DNA of 20,979 bases from a virus: positions 1 through 20,979 of the IMG/VR virus record IMGVR_UViG_3300033153_006308. One strand, 5' to 3'. The notes under the pieces were generated by a model. It had not been told where the DNA came from and ran no database searches. It saw only the letters and a list, made by a program, of their open reading frames with translations. Positions 1,786-18,661 of this stretch are shown piece by piece (the stretch's first letter is position 1; every line of letters begins with the position of its first letter). Made by a program: the position numbers and the translations under genes.

Positions 1786-1941
1786 TCATTCCTCCAATAG
1801 TATTTTCTCTTTTAGTTTTTTGATTTTCTCTTGAACTCTGATTAAACATGCCGAACATACCCACATGCCATTTATCATGGTTATTGCTTCGTTTCCGCAT
1901 CTATCGTAATTCTTGCATAGGGGTTTGTTTCTTATGTTCAT
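1786..1941 (-). CDS. Small zinc-ribbon protein, 51 residues
   Basis: Start is placed at the ATG at 1941, which overlaps the portal-MuF stop (ATGA) and has GGTGAT five bases before it; an upstream in-frame ATG at 1968 would overlap the portal gene with no ribosome site. Cysteines fall in CKNYDRC and CSAC, a plausible zinc knuckle, followed by a charged helix (RVQEKIKKLKEKILLEE). Its final codons give the GGAGG of the next, TTG-initiated gene. Function unknown; small zinc proteins are common between viral head genes. Confidence 0.65.
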   Translation of the reverse strand: MNIRNKPLCKNYDRCGNEAITMINGMWVCSACLIRVQEKIKKLKEKILLEE

Positions 1942-3809
1942 TTTTCTATCACCGACAATAATGAACATCTGCAGCGCGGATGTGCGGGGGGAGGGCTAAC
2001 TGTATTTATATCAAACACTTGGCCGTGTAATGCGTTGCATATCTCGCAAGTTCTTTCAGAAGCGGCAGCCAACCATCTGACTTTTTTTATGCCTGCTCCT
2101 TTATACGTGTCTATCAGTCCGATATTAGCCAGTCTGATTGTTTCTGTTCTTGCGATTATGTCCGGCCTTCTCTTTGATTTCAAAATAACTTTTCCGTCTT
2201 TTTTTACGTCTTTTAGTTCTAATTGCTTTATTTCTGATTTTATTTCTGTAATAGTCTGGTTTTCCTTGAATCCGGTCTCGAATATAGTTCTTAGTTTCTC
2301 TATCTCCGGTTCTGATAGTTTACCGTCTGCGATGTCTGACTTTTTGAAAGCGGCCAGATATTCAAATTTGTCTATCTTTAATTTCTTCAATATATTTTCG
2401 AGATAGTCGGAATATTTTAGTTTTGCGGTCTCATTTAGATTAGAGAATTCTTTTAATGACATATCACTGGTTTGTTCTATTTCCAGTTCTGATAATTCAA
2501 AATGATTTTCAATGTATTTTTCTTCCGGTTCTTCATCTTCTGGTTTTAGTTCTGGCTTCTGGTCTTCGGGCTTTTCCTTTTCTGGGGGGGATAGATATTT
2601 AGGCGCATCTTCCATGTTCAATAGTTTTGCTATCTCTAACTCTGCCATTCTCCTAAGCGGTTCTGACGTGTTCATGCTCTCGATGAGTTTAGTTAGCCGG
2701 TCTATCCTGTTGTTTATCTCCTCTTCGCCTGGTAGATTCCAAGTAAAATCAACTTCGTCATTACTTCCATGTTCTTCTAATAATGGTTTGAATATCTGCT
2801 CTTCGATTACGCTCTCTATTTCTTCCTGGATTACTGACATTTTTCTTTGGAATATCTCAGACTGCGCTTTTGCCAGACCTTCGGGTATATTACCGCCGCC
2901 GAATAATACTATCGGTATCTCCATCCCGAAAGCGACAAGTAACATATCATGGTCCAATACGTCTGTTAGGTTTTTGCCTATCTGGCCGAAGTCTATCACG
3001 TTCATTTTTACATTAGAATCAGTTACCCATTCCGTGCGGTTGTTCATCACTTGTAAGCTATCTTTGAAAGCGTCAATATGCTTAGTATTTACCGCTTCGC
3101 CTTCACGACCTACTGCAGCATGAATCGGCGCGCCCGCTTTTCTGCTGATTAGTTTCTGTAAGTCCTGTTCGTTCAGTACCATGTTCTCTATTGTTCTTTC
3201 GTTAGGGTATATTATACCTATACCGTATGGTTCGCCGGCTATTTTGTTTATTCTCAGGTGCGCAATGTGGTCGGGTTTGAAGTTATTTACTTCTTTTTTG
3301 TTTTTTCTATATCTCTTTAAATCGCCTATCCATTGATTATAGCCTTTGACGTTTCCTTTGTCGTCACGTACAACGTACATAGTATTTGCATTCAATACCT
3401 GTATGCCTTTTCCTTTTAGGTCTAGCTCTAAGAATCCGTTTCCTTTCGAGAATCCTTCCCTGATCCATTCTCTTAGAACAGAAGTGAAATTAGTATTTTT
3501 GATGAAATCAGATATTATCTGGTCTGCTTTCTTTGTTTTTGTAGTATAAGAGAAATCGCCAACTACAGAATCAGTGATTTTATTTATACCGCCGTTAATT
3601 ACTCCTATTGTCTTATATACATCTTCCATAGCTTCAAAACTAAACGGATGTGCTGCGCCTAACGATTTCGGGAAATTAATAGGTATGTCGCTTACTTCGC
3701 CTTTGAATGCTTCTTTAGTCTCGTTTTTAGAAGATATATATCCGAGTTTACCTGTTGATTTTTCAGAGAATAATTTAGATAGATTAAACTGCATGGGAAG
3801 ATATTGCAT
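1938..3809 (-). CDS. Portal protein fused to MuF/SPP1 gp7-type minor head domain
   Basis: The 623-residue product has two parts. Residues about 1-400 fit a phage portal protein: an early segment in a dodecameric DNA-entry channel, with KGNGFLELDLKGKG, PDHIAHLRIN and AFGMEIPIVLFGGG followed by AKAQSEIFQRKMSVIQEEIES. A linker rich in Pro and Glu (about 403-435) leads to a C-terminal part with the MuF hallmark: RPDIIARTETIRLANIG, then WLAAASERTCEICNALHG and a PPAHPRCRCSLL end. Cys588 and Cys591 and the final HPRCRC are the conserved metal/disulphide residues of that family. In SPP1 and Mu these are separate proteins; the fusion delivers one gp7-like domain per portal subunit. No good Shine-Dalgarno precedes 3809; the ATG at 3794 is an alternative start. 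Confidence 0.9.
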   Translation of the reverse strand: MQYLPMQFNLSKLFSEKSTGKLGYISSKNETKEAFKGEVSDIPINFPKSLGAAHPFSFEAMEDVYKTIGVINGGINKITDSVVGDFSYTTKTKKADQIISDFIKNTNFTSVLREWIREGFSKGNGFLELDLKGKGIQVLNANTMYVVRDDKGNVKGYNQWIGDLKRYRKNKKEVNNFKPDHIAHLRINKIAGEPYGIGIIYPNERTIENMVLNEQDLQKLISRKAGAPIHAAVGREGEAVNTKHIDAFKDSLQVMNNRTEWVTDSNVKMNVIDFGQIGKNLTDVLDHDMLLVAFGMEIPIVLFGGGNIPEGLAKAQSEIFQRKMSVIQEEIESVIEEQIFKPLLEEHGSNDEVDFTWNLPGEEEINNRIDRLTKLIESMNTSEPLRRMAELEIAKLLNMEDAPKYLSPPEKEKPEDQKPELKPEDEEPEEKYIENHFELSELEIEQTSDMSLKEFSNLNETAKLKYSDYLENILKKLKIDKFEYLAAFKKSDIADGKLSEPEIEKLRTIFETGFKENQTITEIKSEIKQLELKDVKKDGKVILKSKRRPDIIARTETIRLANIGLIDTYKGAGIKKVRWLAAASERTCEICNALHGQVFDINTVSPPPAHPRCRCSLLSVIEK

Positions 3810-3849
3810 AGGTTAGTACTTATTATTTGGACAGAACACGTTAAGGGTA

Positions 3850-4020
3850 TTTATTATTTAGAACTAGAATTGATAATTACATCTTGCGCGGGTAAATGTT
3901 TCCATTTTCCGTTTTTGTCTTTCTCTACGAAACCGTTACCGAAAATCAATTTATCTAATTCAACTTTTTCTTTTATATCATCGGGAATAGTATCATACTC
4001 TTGTTGCGGTATCTTTTTCA
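3850..4020 (-). CDS. Small hypothetical protein, 56 residues
   Basis: Begins MKKIPQQEYDTIPDDIKEK and ends LPAQDVIINSSSK. The ATG at 4020 overlaps the TGA of the preceding gene, and GAGGATGAT (encoding the EDD of that gene's tail) lies just before it, so the call is firm despite its length. The middle, KLIFGNGFVEKDKNGKWKHL, looks like a short beta hairpin. No family recognised. The 40 bases after it, before the portal start, contain AT-rich stretches but no clear promoter. Confidence 0.7.
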
Positions 4021-4254
4021 TTTCAAATCATCCTCTGTTATGTTGAATTTCTCTTTTATGTATTTTACGGCTGACTTATTAGATGAATCACCTACAACAG
4101 ACCATTCGCCAGATTCTTCTTTTTTATCACGTTCTATGTCTTCTTTTTGTAATTCTTTTATATCGTCTATTGCTGATTGTCTTAGTTCTTCTGGTTCAAC
4201 CATTTCAGGTCTGTCTGATTCTTCAATCAAGTCTTTCAATGTCTTCAATGTCAT
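4018..4254 (-). CDS. Paralog 1 of the LRQS-IDDI / KFNITEDDLK small-protein family
   Basis: Product of 78 residues: MTLKTLKDLIEES at the N terminus, EELRQSAIDDIKELQK in the middle, a charged stretch, and a KYIKEKFNITEDDLK end. The ATG at 4254 is preferred to the one nine bases upstream because GAGATGAT precedes it. Two other genes in the window (14180-14443, 18395-18661) share the N-terminal TLKD, the LRQS-IDDI core and the KFNIT-DDL tail. The tail's codons form the Shine-Dalgarno GAGGATGAT and overlap the next ATG. I do not recognise the family; it is mostly helical and acidic, with no cysteines in this copy. Confidence 0.8.
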   Translation of the reverse strand: MTLKTLKDLIEESDRPEMVEPEELRQSAIDDIKELQKEDIERDKKEESGEWSVVGDSSNKSAVKYIKEKFNITEDDLK

Positions 4255-4259
4255 GTTTA

Positions 4260-4421
4260 TCATCTCATCGACAAGTTATTCCTTATACAAGCTCCTATAA
4301 AACTATCTGGGAGTAATACAACTGTTTTATCCTCGCATTCAATCACAGTCATAGAATCAGGACATCCTTTGATTGTTCTGTCTGGCATTGTATTATATAC
4401 TTTTTTTATTTTGTCCTTCAC
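4260..4421 (-). CDS. Small hypothetical protein with GTG start, 53 residues
   Basis: GGAGAGTGAT lies four bases before a GTG at 4421. The product begins MKDKIKKVYNTMPDRTIK and ends IGACIRNNLSMR, with cysteines in IKGCPDSM, VIECEDK and GACIR. The Shine-Dalgarno is encoded by the last codons of the upstream 42-residue gene, and its own TGA overlaps the ATG at 4263. Three cysteines and the beta-like core TVIECEDKTVVLLP hint at a small folded domain. No family recognised. Confidence 0.6.
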   Translation of the reverse strand: MKDKIKKVYNTMPDRTIKGCPDSMTVIECEDKTVVLLPDSFIGACIRNNLSMR

Positions 4422-5558: not shown

Positions 5559-5631
5559 TGGAATCGGTAGGATTTGAACCTACGTCACATGGCTCCAGAC
5601 CACGAATGATACCAAACTACACCACACTCCA
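5559..5631 (-). tRNA. Divergent tRNA, anticodon loop TCTGGAG (Pro-TGG or Gln-CTG)
   Basis: The T arm GTAGG-TTCAAAT-CCTAC and the anticodon arm CGTGG-TCTGGAG-CCATG are clean, with a four-base variable loop and a D loop AGTTTGGTA that carries the conserved A14, GG and A21. The acceptor stem is poor: TGGAGTG against CGATTCC leaves mismatches unless one base is bulged. Read conventionally the anticodon is TGG (proline), but base 33 is C instead of the nearly universal T; a one-base shift gives CTG (glutamine). No CCA is encoded. It starts five bases after a stop codon, so it is part of the mRNA run. It may be functional or decaying. Confidence 0.65.
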
Positions 5632-11271: not shown

Positions 11272-11892
11272 TCAAATTAGGTCGCAAATCAGGTCTGCGC
11301 TCTTAGTCCATGTATTATCTCTTGCGGTCTTTAGTGCTGCTTCGCCTAGTTTTTTCATCTCTTCCGGGTGTTCGTATGCGTATCTTAGCTTTTTTCTTAA
11401 ATCGGGAATAGAAGGGGTCGCCCAAGAACATCCCTCGTACATGACTTCAAATTCTACCTCGTCGAGTTTATAGTTTACATATAATCCGTTTACTTTGTCT
11501 TTTATGTAATCAGTCATACCCCCATACGCCGTCACAATGCTCGCAAGTTGACAAGCTGCCGCCTCGATACAGGGCAGATTATAGGCTTCTGCTCGCGTGG
11601 GGCTTACAAATACGGTGGCTGAGTTGTAGAGGTCTACCATCTTGGAGTATTCTATGTTTTGTGTGTTGATAATCAGTTCCGGTAAGTTCTTTTCTCGCGG
11701 GCTTATCTGTTTTATTAGGTTGTTTAGGTCGGGTATGCCGTAGGCGGGGTTTATTTTTAATATCGCGCTAACATCATCTTTATCGGTGAATTCTTGAAAG
11801 TATGCTTGTATAAAATATTGAGCGCCGCCTCTATCCTGCATACCTCTCCATCCTTTTACAATTAAAAACACACATTTTTTATTTGAGTCCAT
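11272..11892 (-). CDS. GT4 glycosyltransferase, C-terminal Rossmann half (split gene)
   Basis: 206 residues that match only the second, nucleotide-sugar-binding half of a GT-B fold family-4 enzyme. It begins at the strand that follows the interdomain linker (KKCVFLIVKGWRGMQDRGG). It carries the donor-binding E-x7-E signature as Glu102 and Glu110 in SPTRAEAYNLPCIEAA, and ends with the usual terminal helix (NTWTKSADLICDLI). The first half is the separate gene 12715-13203, on the far side of an HNH gene. Start ATG 11892 overlaps the HNH end; GAGGGG lies five bases before it and an in-frame TAA directly precedes it, so it must be a new polypeptide. The two halves may assemble non-covalently. Confidence 0.85.
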   Translation of the reverse strand: MDSNKKCVFLIVKGWRGMQDRGGAQYFIQAYFQEFTDKDDVSAILKINPAYGIPDLNNLIKQISPREKNLPELIINTQNIEYSKMVDLYNSATVFVSPTRAEAYNLPCIEAAACQLASIVTAYGGMTDYIKDKVNGLYVNYKLDEVEFEVMYEGCSWATPSIPDLRKKLRYAYEHPEEMKKLGEAALKTARDNTWTKSADLICDLI

Positions 11893-12691
11893 TTATACCC
11901 CTCATCTTTTGTATATAAAATGCTTTCCAATAATCCCTTTTTTTATTTGCTTTCGTATTGCAAATATTACATAAAGTAATTAAATTTTCTTCTTTATTAT
12001 TTTTTTTATTATAATCAATATGATGAACACTTATAAATACTGTTGGGCTTTGCTTTTCTATTTTTAACCCACATTTTTTGCAAGTAAAATCATCTCTTTT
12101 CAATATTTTTAGTCTCTTTTTATAAAATTCTGATGTATAAGGTTCAAAACTTCTACCATCAATCCATGCCGGATTTTTATCACCTAAAAATGATTCTTTT
12201 TGATATTTTTGTGAACAGTTCAGTGAGCAAAACTTTTGTTTTACATTCGGTTGAACATAAATTGTCTTTCCACATTGAGCGCATTTATCTTTTTTTCCAG
12301 TTCTATGTGCTAAACCCATACATTTTCTTGAACAAAATTTACCATTATTTTTTTTAATTTGACGTGGATGTACCATAAATTCTTTTTTGCATACTTTACA
12401 TATTCTTTTAACTTTCAAACAATTTTCTCCAAATCTTTTTTTAACACTCTCTAAATGTTTTTTAATTATTTCTGGTCTTTTCATCGGATTTTTATCCCCC
12501 AACATTTTACCTTTTAATGGCGCATATCCATTTTTATATTTCTCTTTCATAAGAAGACTTTGATTCGGTCTTTTTTTACCTTTCTTAGATTCATTATAAC
12601 ACTTCATTGAGCAAAATTTTCTTTTATTACATTTATACTGAATTGTTTTTACCCCGCAATTTAAACAAATTATTTCTTCTTTTTTTATCAT
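11879..12691 (-). CDS. HNH endonuclease with zinc fingers, inserted in the GT4 gene
   Basis: 270 residues. The N-terminal two thirds hold three C-x2-C...C-x3-C fingers (CLNCGV/CSMKC, CKVCKK/CSRKC, CAQCGK/CSLNC) and two NUMOD-like GDKNP motifs (GDKNPMKRPE, GDKNPAW). The C-terminal HNH domain has DDFTCKKCG, the catalytic SVHHIDYNKKN and LITLCNICNT. This is the domain set of free-standing or intron-borne homing endonucleases, which cut an intact allele so the element is copied in. The gene looks more AT-rich than its neighbours, in line with mobility. It starts 26 bases after the first GT4 half stops and its end overlaps the second half. No room remains outside the ORF for a group I intron core. 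Confidence 0.9.
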   Translation of the reverse strand: MIKKEEIICLNCGVKTIQYKCNKRKFCSMKCYNESKKGKKRPNQSLLMKEKYKNGYAPLKGKMLGDKNPMKRPEIIKKHLESVKKRFGENCLKVKRICKVCKKEFMVHPRQIKKNNGKFCSRKCMGLAHRTGKKDKCAQCGKTIYVQPNVKQKFCSLNCSQKYQKESFLGDKNPAWIDGRSFEPYTSEFYKKRLKILKRDDFTCKKCGLKIEKQSPTVFISVHHIDYNKKNNKEENLITLCNICNTKANKKRDYWKAFYIQKMRGINGLK

Positions 12692-12714
12692 TAATATTCT
12701 TAGGTAATAAAGGG

Positions 12715-13203
12715 TTATAAAACTATCTTTTTAGGGTAGAACAATTTTAAATCACATCCATGCGGGATGAGTTTTAGTTTTTTCCTTATTTCAGGATATA
12801 TGTCACCGCAAATATATTTATTGTCAATTCCGCATTTAGTATTAAGTAGCGCATCCATCGTGTGATAACTTGGAACAAAAATAAATTCAATATTCGGATT
12901 CATGCATTCTTCTATAAAGCATTTCGGAATCTCTGAACCCTCCCAAATCAAGTACACCCAATTCCTTTTTGCGGTTGCGTTCAATTTCCAGTGCAAAGGG
13001 TTTGTGATTATTAGATTTATTTCGTCTTCTTCTGCTGGGCGTTTTAGTAGTTCTAGCTCTCTGTCGTCTACAAGTCTTTCCCAGTTTGGAACTCCACCGG
13101 TGGTTACTCTTACGTCTGTTATTTTGTCTAATGCTCGTACTAGGTTTCTAACGTGATTTGAGTATCCGTCGCATCCAAAAAAATTACCTATGATTGAAAT
13201 CAT
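12715..13203 (-). CDS. GT4 glycosyltransferase, N-terminal Rossmann half (split gene)
   Basis: 162 residues corresponding to the acceptor-binding first half of a family-4 GT-B enzyme. It has the opening glycine loop MISIIGNFFGCDGYSNHVRN, a middle strand INLIITNPLHW, and the end-of-domain motif KLIPHGCDLKLFYPK that normally leads straight into the second domain. It then stops after three extra residues (IVL). GGGAGTGG precedes the ATG at 13203. The missing half is at 11272-11892. If both polypeptides fold and pair, activity may be kept; otherwise this is an interrupted gene. Confidence 0.85.
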   Translation of the reverse strand: MISIIGNFFGCDGYSNHVRNLVRALDKITDVRVTTGGVPNWERLVDDRELELLKRPAEEDEINLIITNPLHWKLNATAKRNWVYLIWEGSEIPKCFIEECMNPNIEFIFVPSYHTMDALLNTKCGIDNKYICGDIYPEIRKKLKLIPHGCDLKLFYPKKIVL

Positions 13204-13301: not shown

Positions 13302-14183
13302 TTACCTCAAATTAGTCTCTTTAAGCAGTTCAAGTTCGCTGGGCATATTTTCATGTGTGAATATCTTATTTAGTTTGTCTTTGTGTTTCTTTGTGAATTC
13401 AACTAATATTTTCTGGTTGAATAAAGTTAGTTCTCTTTGGTCTGGGAATCTCTCGCCTCCTGAGGGTGTGCACTGATGTCTGTTTACCGCGCCAGTGTCC
13501 ACTCCTATCTTAAAGCCGTTCATCAAAGCGTTATAAGAAAAAATCTGTTCTTCCCTAAAACCGTGCTTGCTTAATCTTGTCGGGTAGTATTTCACTTTCT
13601 CATGGACTTCTTTTTTTATCATTGCACAACTTCTAAAATGATGTGCTGGAAGTATCACCGAGTCAGTATAAGCCCATCCACAATCATCACCGTTCATAAT
13701 ATAATTGCCTTTTTCGTCTAGTATCACCCTGTTTACTATGCCTTTCAGGTGTTTTGGATCTCTTTTGAAGACCGGTCCAATCATAGGAATAGTTACACCG
13801 CTTGCTATGTCGTAGCCAGATTCTATCACTTTCAGCAGTCTTTCTATGTAGTCCGACTCTAAAATCACATCATCATCGAGGCGGACGAAGTAATCGTAAT
13901 CGCCTTTAGAGTTTGCATAGTCTACTATTGCCTGTCTTGCTCTGCTTACGCCGTGTGGGAATTCTGTGCGCTTTAGGAATAGTTTGTGGTCTTCTAGTTT
14001 CATTCTGGTTATTACGCAGTTAAAAAAGTGATAGTTAGTTAGCGGTGTGCCTGAGCAATCGTCTAAGATGAATATATCCAGATTTTTTATTGTCTGTGTT
14101 CTTATGCTTTGGAGTAGTAATGCGCATTCCGTAGGCCTGTCTTTTAAGCATATCAACACCGCAATGGGTCTATTTATTTTCAT
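13302..14183 (-). CDS. Glycosyltransferase family 2 (GT-A fold), 293 residues
   Basis: Transfers a sugar from a nucleotide donor by a metal-dependent GT-A mechanism. The N-terminal strand-loop PIAVLICLKDRP and DIFILDDCSG bind the nucleotide. FVRLDDDVI (Asp103-105) is the metal-binding DxD, and HGFREEQIFS near residue 210 matches the ED acceptor-side motif. A histidine-bearing GAVNRHQ segment is typical of the late catalytic domain. The C terminus (about 250-293) is a helical tail without membrane segments, so the enzyme is soluble. The start overlaps the stop of the upstream paralog-family protein, whose final codons give the ribosome site. Confidence 0.9.
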   Translation of the reverse strand: MKINRPIAVLICLKDRPTECALLLQSIRTQTIKNLDIFILDDCSGTPLTNYHFFNCVITRMKLEDHKLFLKRTEFPHGVSRARQAIVDYANSKGDYDYFVRLDDDVILESDYIERLLKVIESGYDIASGVTIPMIGPVFKRDPKHLKGIVNRVILDEKGNYIMNGDDCGWAYTDSVILPAHHFRSCAMIKKEVHEKVKYYPTRLSKHGFREEQIFSYNALMNGFKIGVDTGAVNRHQCTPSGGERFPDQRELTLFNQKILVEFTKKHKDKLNKIFTHENMPSELELLKETNLR

Positions 14184-14443
14184 TTTAAATCATCCTCTGT
14201 GATGTTGAATTTCTCCATGATGTATTCGATTTTATTATCAAATTCATCTTCACATCTACAATCATACTTATCTTGTTTACAATAAAGACACATATTATGA
14301 AGTTTAAGTGATTCACGAATATCTGCTATTTTAATATTATAATTATTTATGTCGTCTATTGCTGATTGTCTTAGTTCTCTTTCATGTCTTTGGAAACAAC
14401 AACTTTCATTACCGCAACTTGAAAAATCATTCAAAGTTTTCAT
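14180..14443 (-). CDS. Paralog 2 of the LRQS-IDDI / KFNITEDDLK small-protein family
   Basis: 87 residues: MKTLNDFSSCG, then RELRQSAIDDINNYN, then EYIMEKFNITEDDLK. This copy adds seven cysteines (SCGNESCC, MCLYCKQDKYDCRC), suggesting a metal site absent from the other two. The DNA for the LRQSAIDDI segment is identical over 27 bases to the copy at 4163-4189, so exchange was recent. GGTGAAGAA precedes the ATG, and the tail's GAGGATGAT serves the GT2 gene, whose ATG overlaps the stop. Confidence 0.8.
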   Translation of the reverse strand: MKTLNDFSSCGNESCCFQRHERELRQSAIDDINNYNIKIADIRESLKLHNMCLYCKQDKYDCRCEDEFDNKIEYIMEKFNITEDDLK

Positions 14444-15776: not shown

Positions 15777-16285
15777 TTTATTGCCTCAAACTCTTTTATG
15801 CTCATATTTCTATCATCAACATACACGTGTGCATTCGCTTTCCCAAAGTTTATACCGTGATATAGTACCTCATTTTCTATCAGCCATGCGACTGTCTTTC
15901 TTGCGAATTCCCACGGTCTTGATGAATGGATTATAATTGTGTTTCCTTTGAAGAATAACTGGTTTACTATCTCTATGTTTTTCTTGTTTGGTGTCGGTCT
16001 GTCGTCTTCCAGCCAGGGTTTGTTGTCTCCAATCGTTAAAGTATTATCGAAGTCTATTGCATAGCGTTTTTTTTGTATATTTACATCCTTAATAGCGCCC
16101 GTACCATTACATTTATTACAAGATACGTCTACATATATGCCATTCTTTTTGACTTTAGTATATCCATGACCATTACACTCAATACATTTCTTTTGTTTAG
16201 TTGATGTATCATTTTCTAATTCATCTGGTAATTCACTTGCACAAGTAAGCGGGTTATCATGTAGGTATATTTTTTTGTTTTTCAT
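15773..16285 (-). CDS. HAD-type phosphatase with N-terminal DnaJ-like zinc finger
   Basis: 170 residues in two parts. Residues 34-63 carry two CxxCxGxG-type knuckles, CIECNGHG and CNKCNGTG, as in DnaJ (which normally has four). Residues 74-170 are a small HAD domain: motif I YAIDFDNTLT with Asp78 and Asp80, motif II IIIHSSRPWEF (Ser121/122), and motif IV VYVDDRNM (Asp157/158). It lacks the large cap, like short BT0820-type phosphatases found in polysaccharide clusters. It would release phosphate from a small sugar phosphate or similar substrate. The fusion is unusual; the finger may tether it to a partner. Overlaps both neighbours by ATGA. Confidence 0.8.
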   Translation of the reverse strand: MKNKKIYLHDNPLTCASELPDELENDTSTKQKKCIECNGHGYTKVKKNGIYVDVSCNKCNGTGAIKDVNIQKKRYAIDFDNTLTIGDNKPWLEDDRPTPNKKNIEIVNQLFFKGNTIIIHSSRPWEFARKTVAWLIENEVLYHGINFGKANAHVYVDDRNMSIKEFEAIK

Positions 16286-16503
16286 CTTAAATCATCTTTA
16301 GTTGATTCATCAATCTCTTTTTGTTGTTTTAGTTTTACAACACACCAATCATCCGCATAATAGTCTTCTCTGCATAATTTATATGGTGTGCCATCATTCC
16401 AATACCATTCATCATTTTTTTCAAATATATAAAGTACACACCAACACTTACGCATTACTTTTTTGCGTTTTATCAGTCTGTTGATGGCGCAGTTTATTTT
16501 CAT
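16282..16503 (-). CDS. Hypothetical protein, 73 residues, coupling tail
   Basis: Begins MKINCAINRLIKRKKVMRKC and has an aromatic/cysteine centre (CWCVLYIFEKNDEWYW, LCREDYYADDWC). It ends in STKDDLR, similar to the last residues of the three-copy paralog family, though the body is unrelated. The tail codons (AAAGATGAT) serve the next gene and the TGA overlaps its ATG. It starts directly after the CapK-like gene's stop with GGGCGGTTGA before the ATG. Function unknown. Confidence 0.7.
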   Translation of the reverse strand: MKINCAINRLIKRKKVMRKCWCVLYIFEKNDEWYWNDGTPYKLCREDYYADDWCVVKLKQQKEIDESTKDDLR

Positions 16504-17721: not shown

Positions 17722-18398
17722 TATAATCCCCATTTCTTTTTGAATAGTTTTCCGTTTTTCTCTATCTTTTTTGTTATCAATTCTCCGTTTACTTTGTCTT
17801 TTTCAGTATGAAATTCTACTTTGCGATGATGGTCAACCCAATAGTTTATCATATAATAAATCAGTCCTGCTTCTTTGATGGCATAACAAAAATCTATATC
17901 ATCTCCGGGTCCGCAATATCGTTCATCGAATAATCCTACTTTATTGATTGTGCTTCTTGGCAGATATGCGCACCAAGTACCAATCCACACGAATCCTTCT
18001 AAATAATCCTTGCCGCTTGTACCGCCGCCTGCGAAACATGTAACCAATCCACAGTCTTTATTATGTTTAGCTGATTGTTCCATCTCAAACAGCCAGTCCG
18101 ATTCATATTTTTTTGGAAATAAAACGTCTGATTGTGTCAGGAATACGTCCAATTCACCTGCTTCTTTTATACCTGTGTTTAGTGCATTTGTAGCTCCTTT
18201 TCGTTCTTTTTGATGTATTACGGTTATTCTTTCGTATCTTTTAGCGTATGCGTCGCATATTTTGTCGGAGCCATCAGTACTGCCGCTTTCTACGAGTATT
18301 ATTCTTGAATAGTTGTTTGTGCTGGCTTGTATGCTGTCTATGGTAGCTATAAGGCTTTTACCGCTATTATAAACAGGGATTATTATTGCTGGTTTCAT
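17721..18398 (-). CDS. Glycosyltransferase family 2 (GT-A fold), 225 residues
   Basis: Opens with the classical GT2 start PAIIIPVYNSGKSLI and RIILVESGSTDGSDKICDAY, followed by KGATNALNTGI. The metal site reads LTQSDVLF, with a single Asp91 preceded by Gln-Ser, an altered DxD. GPGDDIDFCYAI near residue 170 is the ED/D acceptor-side motif. NYWVDHHRKVEFH may complete the active site. Soluble, no membrane segments; it ends with a lysine-rich helix. Compact relative to many GT2 enzymes but with all core elements. Start overlaps the stop of paralog-family copy 3, whose AAAGATGAT gives the ribosome site. Confidence 0.9.
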   Translation of the reverse strand: MKPAIIIPVYNSGKSLIATIDSIQASTNNYSRIILVESGSTDGSDKICDAYAKRYERITVIHQKERKGATNALNTGIKEAGELDVFLTQSDVLFPKKYESDWLFEMEQSAKHNKDCGLVTCFAGGGTSGKDYLEGFVWIGTWCAYLPRSTINKVGLFDERYCGPGDDIDFCYAIKEAGLIYYMINYWVDHHRKVEFHTEKDKVNGELITKKIEKNGKLFKKKWGL

Positions 18399-18661
18399 AT
18401 TAAATCATCTTTTGTTATGTTGAATTTTCGCATTAAATAAAATCTTACCGGTTTCATTTGTTCTGCTTCTCGAATATATGACATTGAATAAGAGATGTTT
18501 TCTTTTGCATCTACATCTAAATCCAAAATTGATTTAGGTTCAATATAAGGCATTTCTTTTATGTCGTCTATTATGGATTGTCTTAGTTTCAATACTTCTA
18601 CACTTAAGCTTCTATTTGTATTTGGCGCAGTCCATAATTCATGGTCTTTCAAAGTCTTCAT
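18395..18661 (-). CDS. Paralog 3 of the LRQS-IDDI / KFNITKDDL small-protein family
   Basis: 88 residues: MKTLKDHELWTAPNTNRS, then LKLRQSIIDDIKEMP, an acidic stretch, and RFYLMRKFNITKDDLI. More divergent than the other two copies (LRQSII, DDLI tail), with no cysteines. GAGTGATTGA before the ATG is formed across the radical SAM stop. It precedes a GT2 gene, as does copy 2. Function unknown. Confidence 0.8.
   Translation of the reverse strand: MKTLKDHELWTAPNTNRSLSVEVLKLRQSIIDDIKEMPYIEPKSILDLDVDAKENISYSMSYIREAEQMKPVRFYLMRKFNITKDDLI

Follow-up and report, generated by a model that had tools for sequence, protein, structure and literature searches.

A free-standing HNH endonuclease gene separates the two halves of a GT4 glycosyltransferase gene in an uncultured phage

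Organization of the locus

The window analyzed here is the entire record of an uncultured virus (IMG/VR record IMGVR_UViG_3300033153_006308; 20,979 bases), which contains terminase and portal genes and carries on its minus strand a long row of glycan genes, including those for GT2 enzymes, a class-V aminotransferase, a radical SAM protein, and a UDP-glucose/GDP-mannose dehydrogenase. Within this row, a GT4-type glycosyltransferase is encoded in two pieces, and the gene of an HNH endonuclease lies between them. The N-terminal part, the HNH gene, and the C-terminal part follow one another in the order of transcription, all on the minus strand, with the following features.

12715..13203, minus strand: N-terminal half of the GT4 glycosyltransferase, 162 amino acids (open frame and one-piece alleles)
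12715-12726, minus strand: final three codons and stop of the N-terminal half, derived from the insert
11878..12726, minus strand: insert of 849 nt that takes the place of 9 nt in the intact allele L008 (right edge uncertain by about 15 nt)
11879..12691, minus strand: free-standing HNH endonuclease gene, 270 amino acids, 26% GC (PF01844, PHROG 1271)
11942..12082, minus strand: HNH domain, residues 204 to 250 (PF01844; HH...N...N type, as in several relatives)
11898..11903, minus strand: GAGGGG, ribosome-site-like sequence for the C-terminal half (-8.7 kcal/mol with the anti-SD)
11879..11892, minus strand: 14 nt shared by the 3' end of the HNH gene and the start of the C-terminal half
11272..11892, minus strand: C-terminal half of the GT4 glycosyltransferase, 206 amino acids (open frame; PF00534, E value of 5.9e-13)

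No host is assigned to the phage because a genome scan with the intact alleles described below returned only one distant match, in an Ignavibacteriaceae MAG (28%). The window also contains a tRNA gene at 5559-5630 on the minus strand (Rfam RF00005, 38.3 bits). In addition, small minus-strand frames at 4018-4263, 14180-14443, and 18395-18661, together with the end of 16282-16503, have in common an ELRQS(A/I)IDDI motif and a C-terminal FNIT(E/K)DDL. Two of these frames lie upstream of GT2 genes, and their stop overlaps the start of the next gene. The repeated DNA at their 3' ends (GAGGATGATTTAAAATGA) contains the ribosome site for that start, and the small frames are possibly a spreading gene-start cassette.

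One-piece alleles and the position of the cut

IMG/VR scans with each piece as the query returned largely the same contigs, in which both pieces are encoded by one uninterrupted frame of 363 to 368 amino acids. One-piece alleles are present in five related contigs from other uncultured phages. The closest, L008, shows 91% identity to the N-terminal piece and 85% to the C-terminal piece, and identity is about 70% for those of L012 and L005/L031. One-piece forms are also found in L007 and L032, distant relatives with identities down to 26 to 32%, which indicates that the split is the derived state. The initial annotation, made from the window alone, described a GT4 enzyme present as two genes with an HNH gene between them, and this description is borne out by three open frames at these positions and by relatives that carry the glycosyltransferase gene whole.

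The N-terminal part ends in ...HGCDLKLFYPKK followed by IVL and a stop codon, and the C-terminal part begins with MDSNKKCVFL..., while the intact alleles read ...HGCDLKLFYPKKKPDKCTFL... at the junction. The one-piece protein has LFYPKKKPDKCTFL at this place; in the window, LFYPKK is followed by IVL and the stop, and the sequence resumes with MDSNKKCVFL. Aligned to the intact relatives, the two halves tile the whole protein, with about three linker residues (KPD) replaced and no other loss; both this alignment and the search for an uninterrupted allele in related viruses had been proposed as checks in the initial annotation, and both agree with it. The E-x7-E motif of the C-terminal half is retained as EAYNLPCIE, and the KG(F/W)R...DRGG loop is also there in the alignment.

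A structure model of the L008 protein, built from a five-sequence alignment (mean pLDDT of 77, pTM of 0.80), places the last strand of the N domain at residues 143 to 145, a loop at residues 146 to 163, and the first strand of the C domain at residues 164 to 171. The cut falls after residue 159, four residues before the first strand of the C domain; in this model it is in the interdomain linker of the GT-B fold, where it had been placed from sequence at the outset. The model of the intact relative matches GT4 structures, and fold and profile searches returned GT-B/GT4 enzymes (GlgM, MshA, glycogen synthases, and the chlorella-virus enzyme 3oy2), in agreement with the PF00534 (Glycos_transf_1) match of the C-terminal half.

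A further peculiarity in the same glycan region is seen in L010. The contig of L010 (IMGVR_UViG_3300033143_003234) is 98.7% identical to that of L008, and their similarity begins abruptly at L010:1418. Directly upstream of position 1412, L010 carries an IscB-like gene (L010:2-1411, with RRXRR and HNH domains), also found in L009, where the L008 contig has the end of an aminotransferase. The IscB-like gene looks like a recent mobile-nuclease insertion.

Translation signals at the C-terminal half

The 3' end of the HNH gene holds both a GAGGGG ribosome site (11898-11903) and an overlapping ATG (11892-11890) for the C-terminal half, as first proposed; the two stand at suitable spacing inside the HNH frame, and the genes overlap by 14 nt. 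When the HNH sequence was shuffled, an equally strong ribosome site with a start at this place was obtained in 0.35% (ATG) to 0.8% (any start) of placements. The ribosome site of the HNH gene itself is nearly nil (-1.3 kcal/mol), as it is for half of T4's free-standing endonucleases (PMC2988022).

The initial suggestion that the insertion was tuned for the C-terminal half is not supported, since the same restart arrangement is present in most of the nearer HNH relatives. In these, the ribosome site lies in or at the end of the last codons (L033, L038, L039, L041, L042, L043, L046, L047, L049, L050, and L014; -6 to -14 kcal/mol) and serves a start that coincides with the HNH stop or follows it closely, in a comparison made among HNH relatives. 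Tuning of the restart signal to this enzyme is thus improbable; judging from sequence comparison, the signal seems to belong to the element or to come with compact phage gene order.

The HNH gene and its relatives

The HNH protein matches Pfam PF01844 (E value of 4.9e-6; 27 bits, above the curated cut-off of 21.4) and PHROG 1271, which comprises phage HNH endonucleases (E value of 3.8e-30). No NUMOD model was matched at an E value of ≤0.01, and of the original label "HNH/NUMOD-type" only the first part is kept. Repeated CxxC...FCSxxC motifs can be read in the N-terminal region of the protein. The gene has 26% GC and 17% GC3, whereas the enzyme halves have 36 to 42% GC and 34 to 43% GC3; this composition suggests a newcomer, though some small genes of this phage are AT-rich as well. 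With the HNH residues present and empty alleles in existence, the protein is a candidate homing endonuclease. An exact internal 23-mer of the HNH gene, used to look for a second copy of the insert, was absent from other IMG/VR contigs, and the HNH gene was not found in the contigs of L008, L010, and L012; the L005 contig has a weak partial HNH match elsewhere on the contig.

Related HNH loci lie mostly between genes. In L042 (IMGVR_UViG_3300031746_000004, positions 1921-4011), however, a related HNH gene, with 41% identity to that of the window over residues 130 to 265, splits a gene of a BT1-family transporter. The upstream piece has 84 amino acids and covers BT1 positions 1 to 53 (E value of 0.005, below the curated cut-off), and the downstream piece has 368 amino acids and covers positions 58 to 408 (E value of 5.5e-17). 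In L060 and L061 the same transporter is a single frame reading ...WGFFIDQ(F)(M/L)SRK..., and in L042 ...WGIMID is followed by the HNH gene and then by ...FLSRK. As in the window, the insertion is tight and within a gene, one-piece alleles exist, and the restart ATG overlaps the HNH stop (ribosome site of -10.2 kcal/mol). Unlike in the window, the target is a membrane transporter and the cut, after profile position 53 of 432, is not between two domains. Two unrelated genes have thus been split by related HNH genes, with like anatomy. No second half-gene pair was found by Pfam in the genes flanking the HNH gene in L037, L038, L043, L046, L049, L052, and L054.

Several other features were seen beside HNH relatives. 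Some adjoin glycan genes, namely, GT2 (L015), DUF3431 and a fucosyltransferase-like frame (L026), and Polysacc_synt_2 (L052). In L037, a second short HNH frame (3078-3317; PF01844, E value of 1.9e-11) follows directly after the HNH relative, and in L038 (3143-5407) the gene downstream of the HNH relative has an intein-splicing domain.

We raise only tentatively the idea that these genes represent a widespread phage HNH group that carries its own restart signal in its last codons, whose insertion is thereby survivable, and that repeatedly makes two-piece proteins, some of them functional. A recurrent gene-splitting habit of the HNH group is possible and is the aspect most worth following.

Origin of the insert and fate of the enzyme

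The locus is probably the product of the insertion of a free-standing, homing-type HNH gene, without an intron or intein, in the interdomain linker of a phage GT4 gene whose halves still reassociate into a working enzyme. Three genes on one transcript would then give three proteins. The N-terminal half would terminate at the new stop three codons into the insert, the HNH protein, with almost no ribosome site, would be made at a low level by ribosomes reading on, and the C-terminal half would initiate at the GAGGGG/ATG within the HNH end. The two domains would rejoin non-covalently, like the split NrdA of Aeh1, into a working enzyme of the phage glycan gene cluster.

HNH genes often reside within group I introns, such as that in the tape measure gene of ICP1 (PMC10448857), and the ends of the insert can pair, so a self-splicing intron carrying the HNH gene, with the joined mRNA giving a one-piece enzyme, was considered; it is very improbable. 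All but about 36 nt of the insert belongs to the HNH frame, the predicted folding of the insert does not exceed that of shuffled versions, and the scan for intron RNA families that the initial annotation had called for gave no Rfam match in the insert, either at the gathering cut-off or at an E value of ≤10, and thus no catalytic core RNA of a group I or II intron. In addition, the sister case L042 has neither the end pairing nor an RNA family match at its split. An intein was rejected as well, since stop codons end the N-terminal and HNH frames; neither kind of element surrounds the endonuclease gene. The pairing of the insert ends (11878-12726; -14.8 kcal/mol) would cover the ribosome site of the C-terminal half, but it was noticed post hoc, is reached by 2% of random pairs within the insert, and is absent from L042, and it is not relied on as a signal. 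An assembly chimera of an HNH gene and a glycosyltransferase is slightly less probable again. Only one known contig has the insert, but the homology resumes on both sides of it within one contig, phage HNH genes typically have such a composition and overlap, and L042 is anatomically alike. We give least credence to the two halves being ancestral and the one-piece alleles fusions. Split GT-B pairs do exist in cells (PMC8993221), but near and distant relatives (26 to 32% identity in L007 and L032) are all one-piece, the HNH composition is alien, and the split allele is nested among one-piece alleles.

The insertion may instead have been recent and have broken the enzyme, with halves that are perhaps made but do not reassemble and a non-essential cassette gene that is starting to decay. 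We consider this unlikely, although less so than the preceding readings. The insertion is undated, the HNH composition is still alien, and window-only replacements in the C-terminal piece outnumber those found only in L008 (10 versus 5). Five of these 10 lie within the 18 alignment columns that follow the junction (p of ~0.001), among them F172W at an otherwise invariant Phe; repair or co-conversion when the gene inserted may account for this cluster, as may adaptation of the new end. On the other hand, both halves are fully open and their motifs are kept, replacement counts are even beyond the first 18 codons, the C-terminal half has a good restart site, and the cut lies exactly in the linker. 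Unique replacements in the N-terminal piece number three in the window and five in L008. The dN/dS values relative to L008 are 0.06 for the N-terminal piece and 0.18 for the C-terminal piece, with no stops or frameshifts, and the constraint that they record may predate the insertion, which cannot be dated. For this reason, these values and the replacement counts are compatible with a two-piece enzyme that functions as well as with a recent insertion. Where the cut falls, the motifs that survive, the restart site, and the precedents below make reassembly into a working enzyme likely, though short of proof since the insertion is undatable.

Comparison with known systems

Two-chain GT-B enzymes are known, contrary to the initial remark that no GT-B example was known. 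Alg14/Alg13 and EpsE/EpsF are cut between the same two domains (PMC8993221), which speaks for the feasibility of a two-chain GT-B enzyme here. They resemble the window in having the GT-B domains as separate polypeptides and differ from it in belonging to another GT family, in their ancient split, and in having no endonuclease. What appears unreported in the GT-B split is solely its origin from a homing endonuclease; no report of a glycosyltransferase interrupted by a homing endonuclease was found in the titles and abstracts of a partial literature search. With the window and L042, gene splitting by homing-endonuclease genes reaches beyond replication and nucleotide enzymes and now includes accessory glycan enzymes and, in a relative, a membrane transporter. 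Both cases are natural two-piece proteins whose one-piece relatives are known, which suits them to testing whether split proteins function, and an element that brings its own restart site suggests a reason why such insertions survive.

Phage genes split by free-standing endonuclease genes have been described in several systems. In T4, gene 39/60 is split with mobA (gene 60), and gene 43 of Aeromonas phage 25 with seg43 is possibly the same kind of event, with the order of events unclear (PMC2988022). Both resemble the window in this respect, with other targets and, in phage 25, an enzyme of another family. The precedent cited in the initial annotation, nrdA-a/mobE/nrdA-b of Aeromonas phage Aeh1, in which an enzyme gene is split by mobE and the split enzyme is active, is the same kind of split (PMC2988022, PMC3653736). 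The HNH protein of the window matched 23 phage records, and mobE is none of them. The host enzyme in Aeh1 is another one, and the function of the split enzyme has been demonstrated there and is predicted for the window; in both phages, a free-standing HNH gene lies inside an enzyme gene, with no intron, and leaves two separate coding regions.
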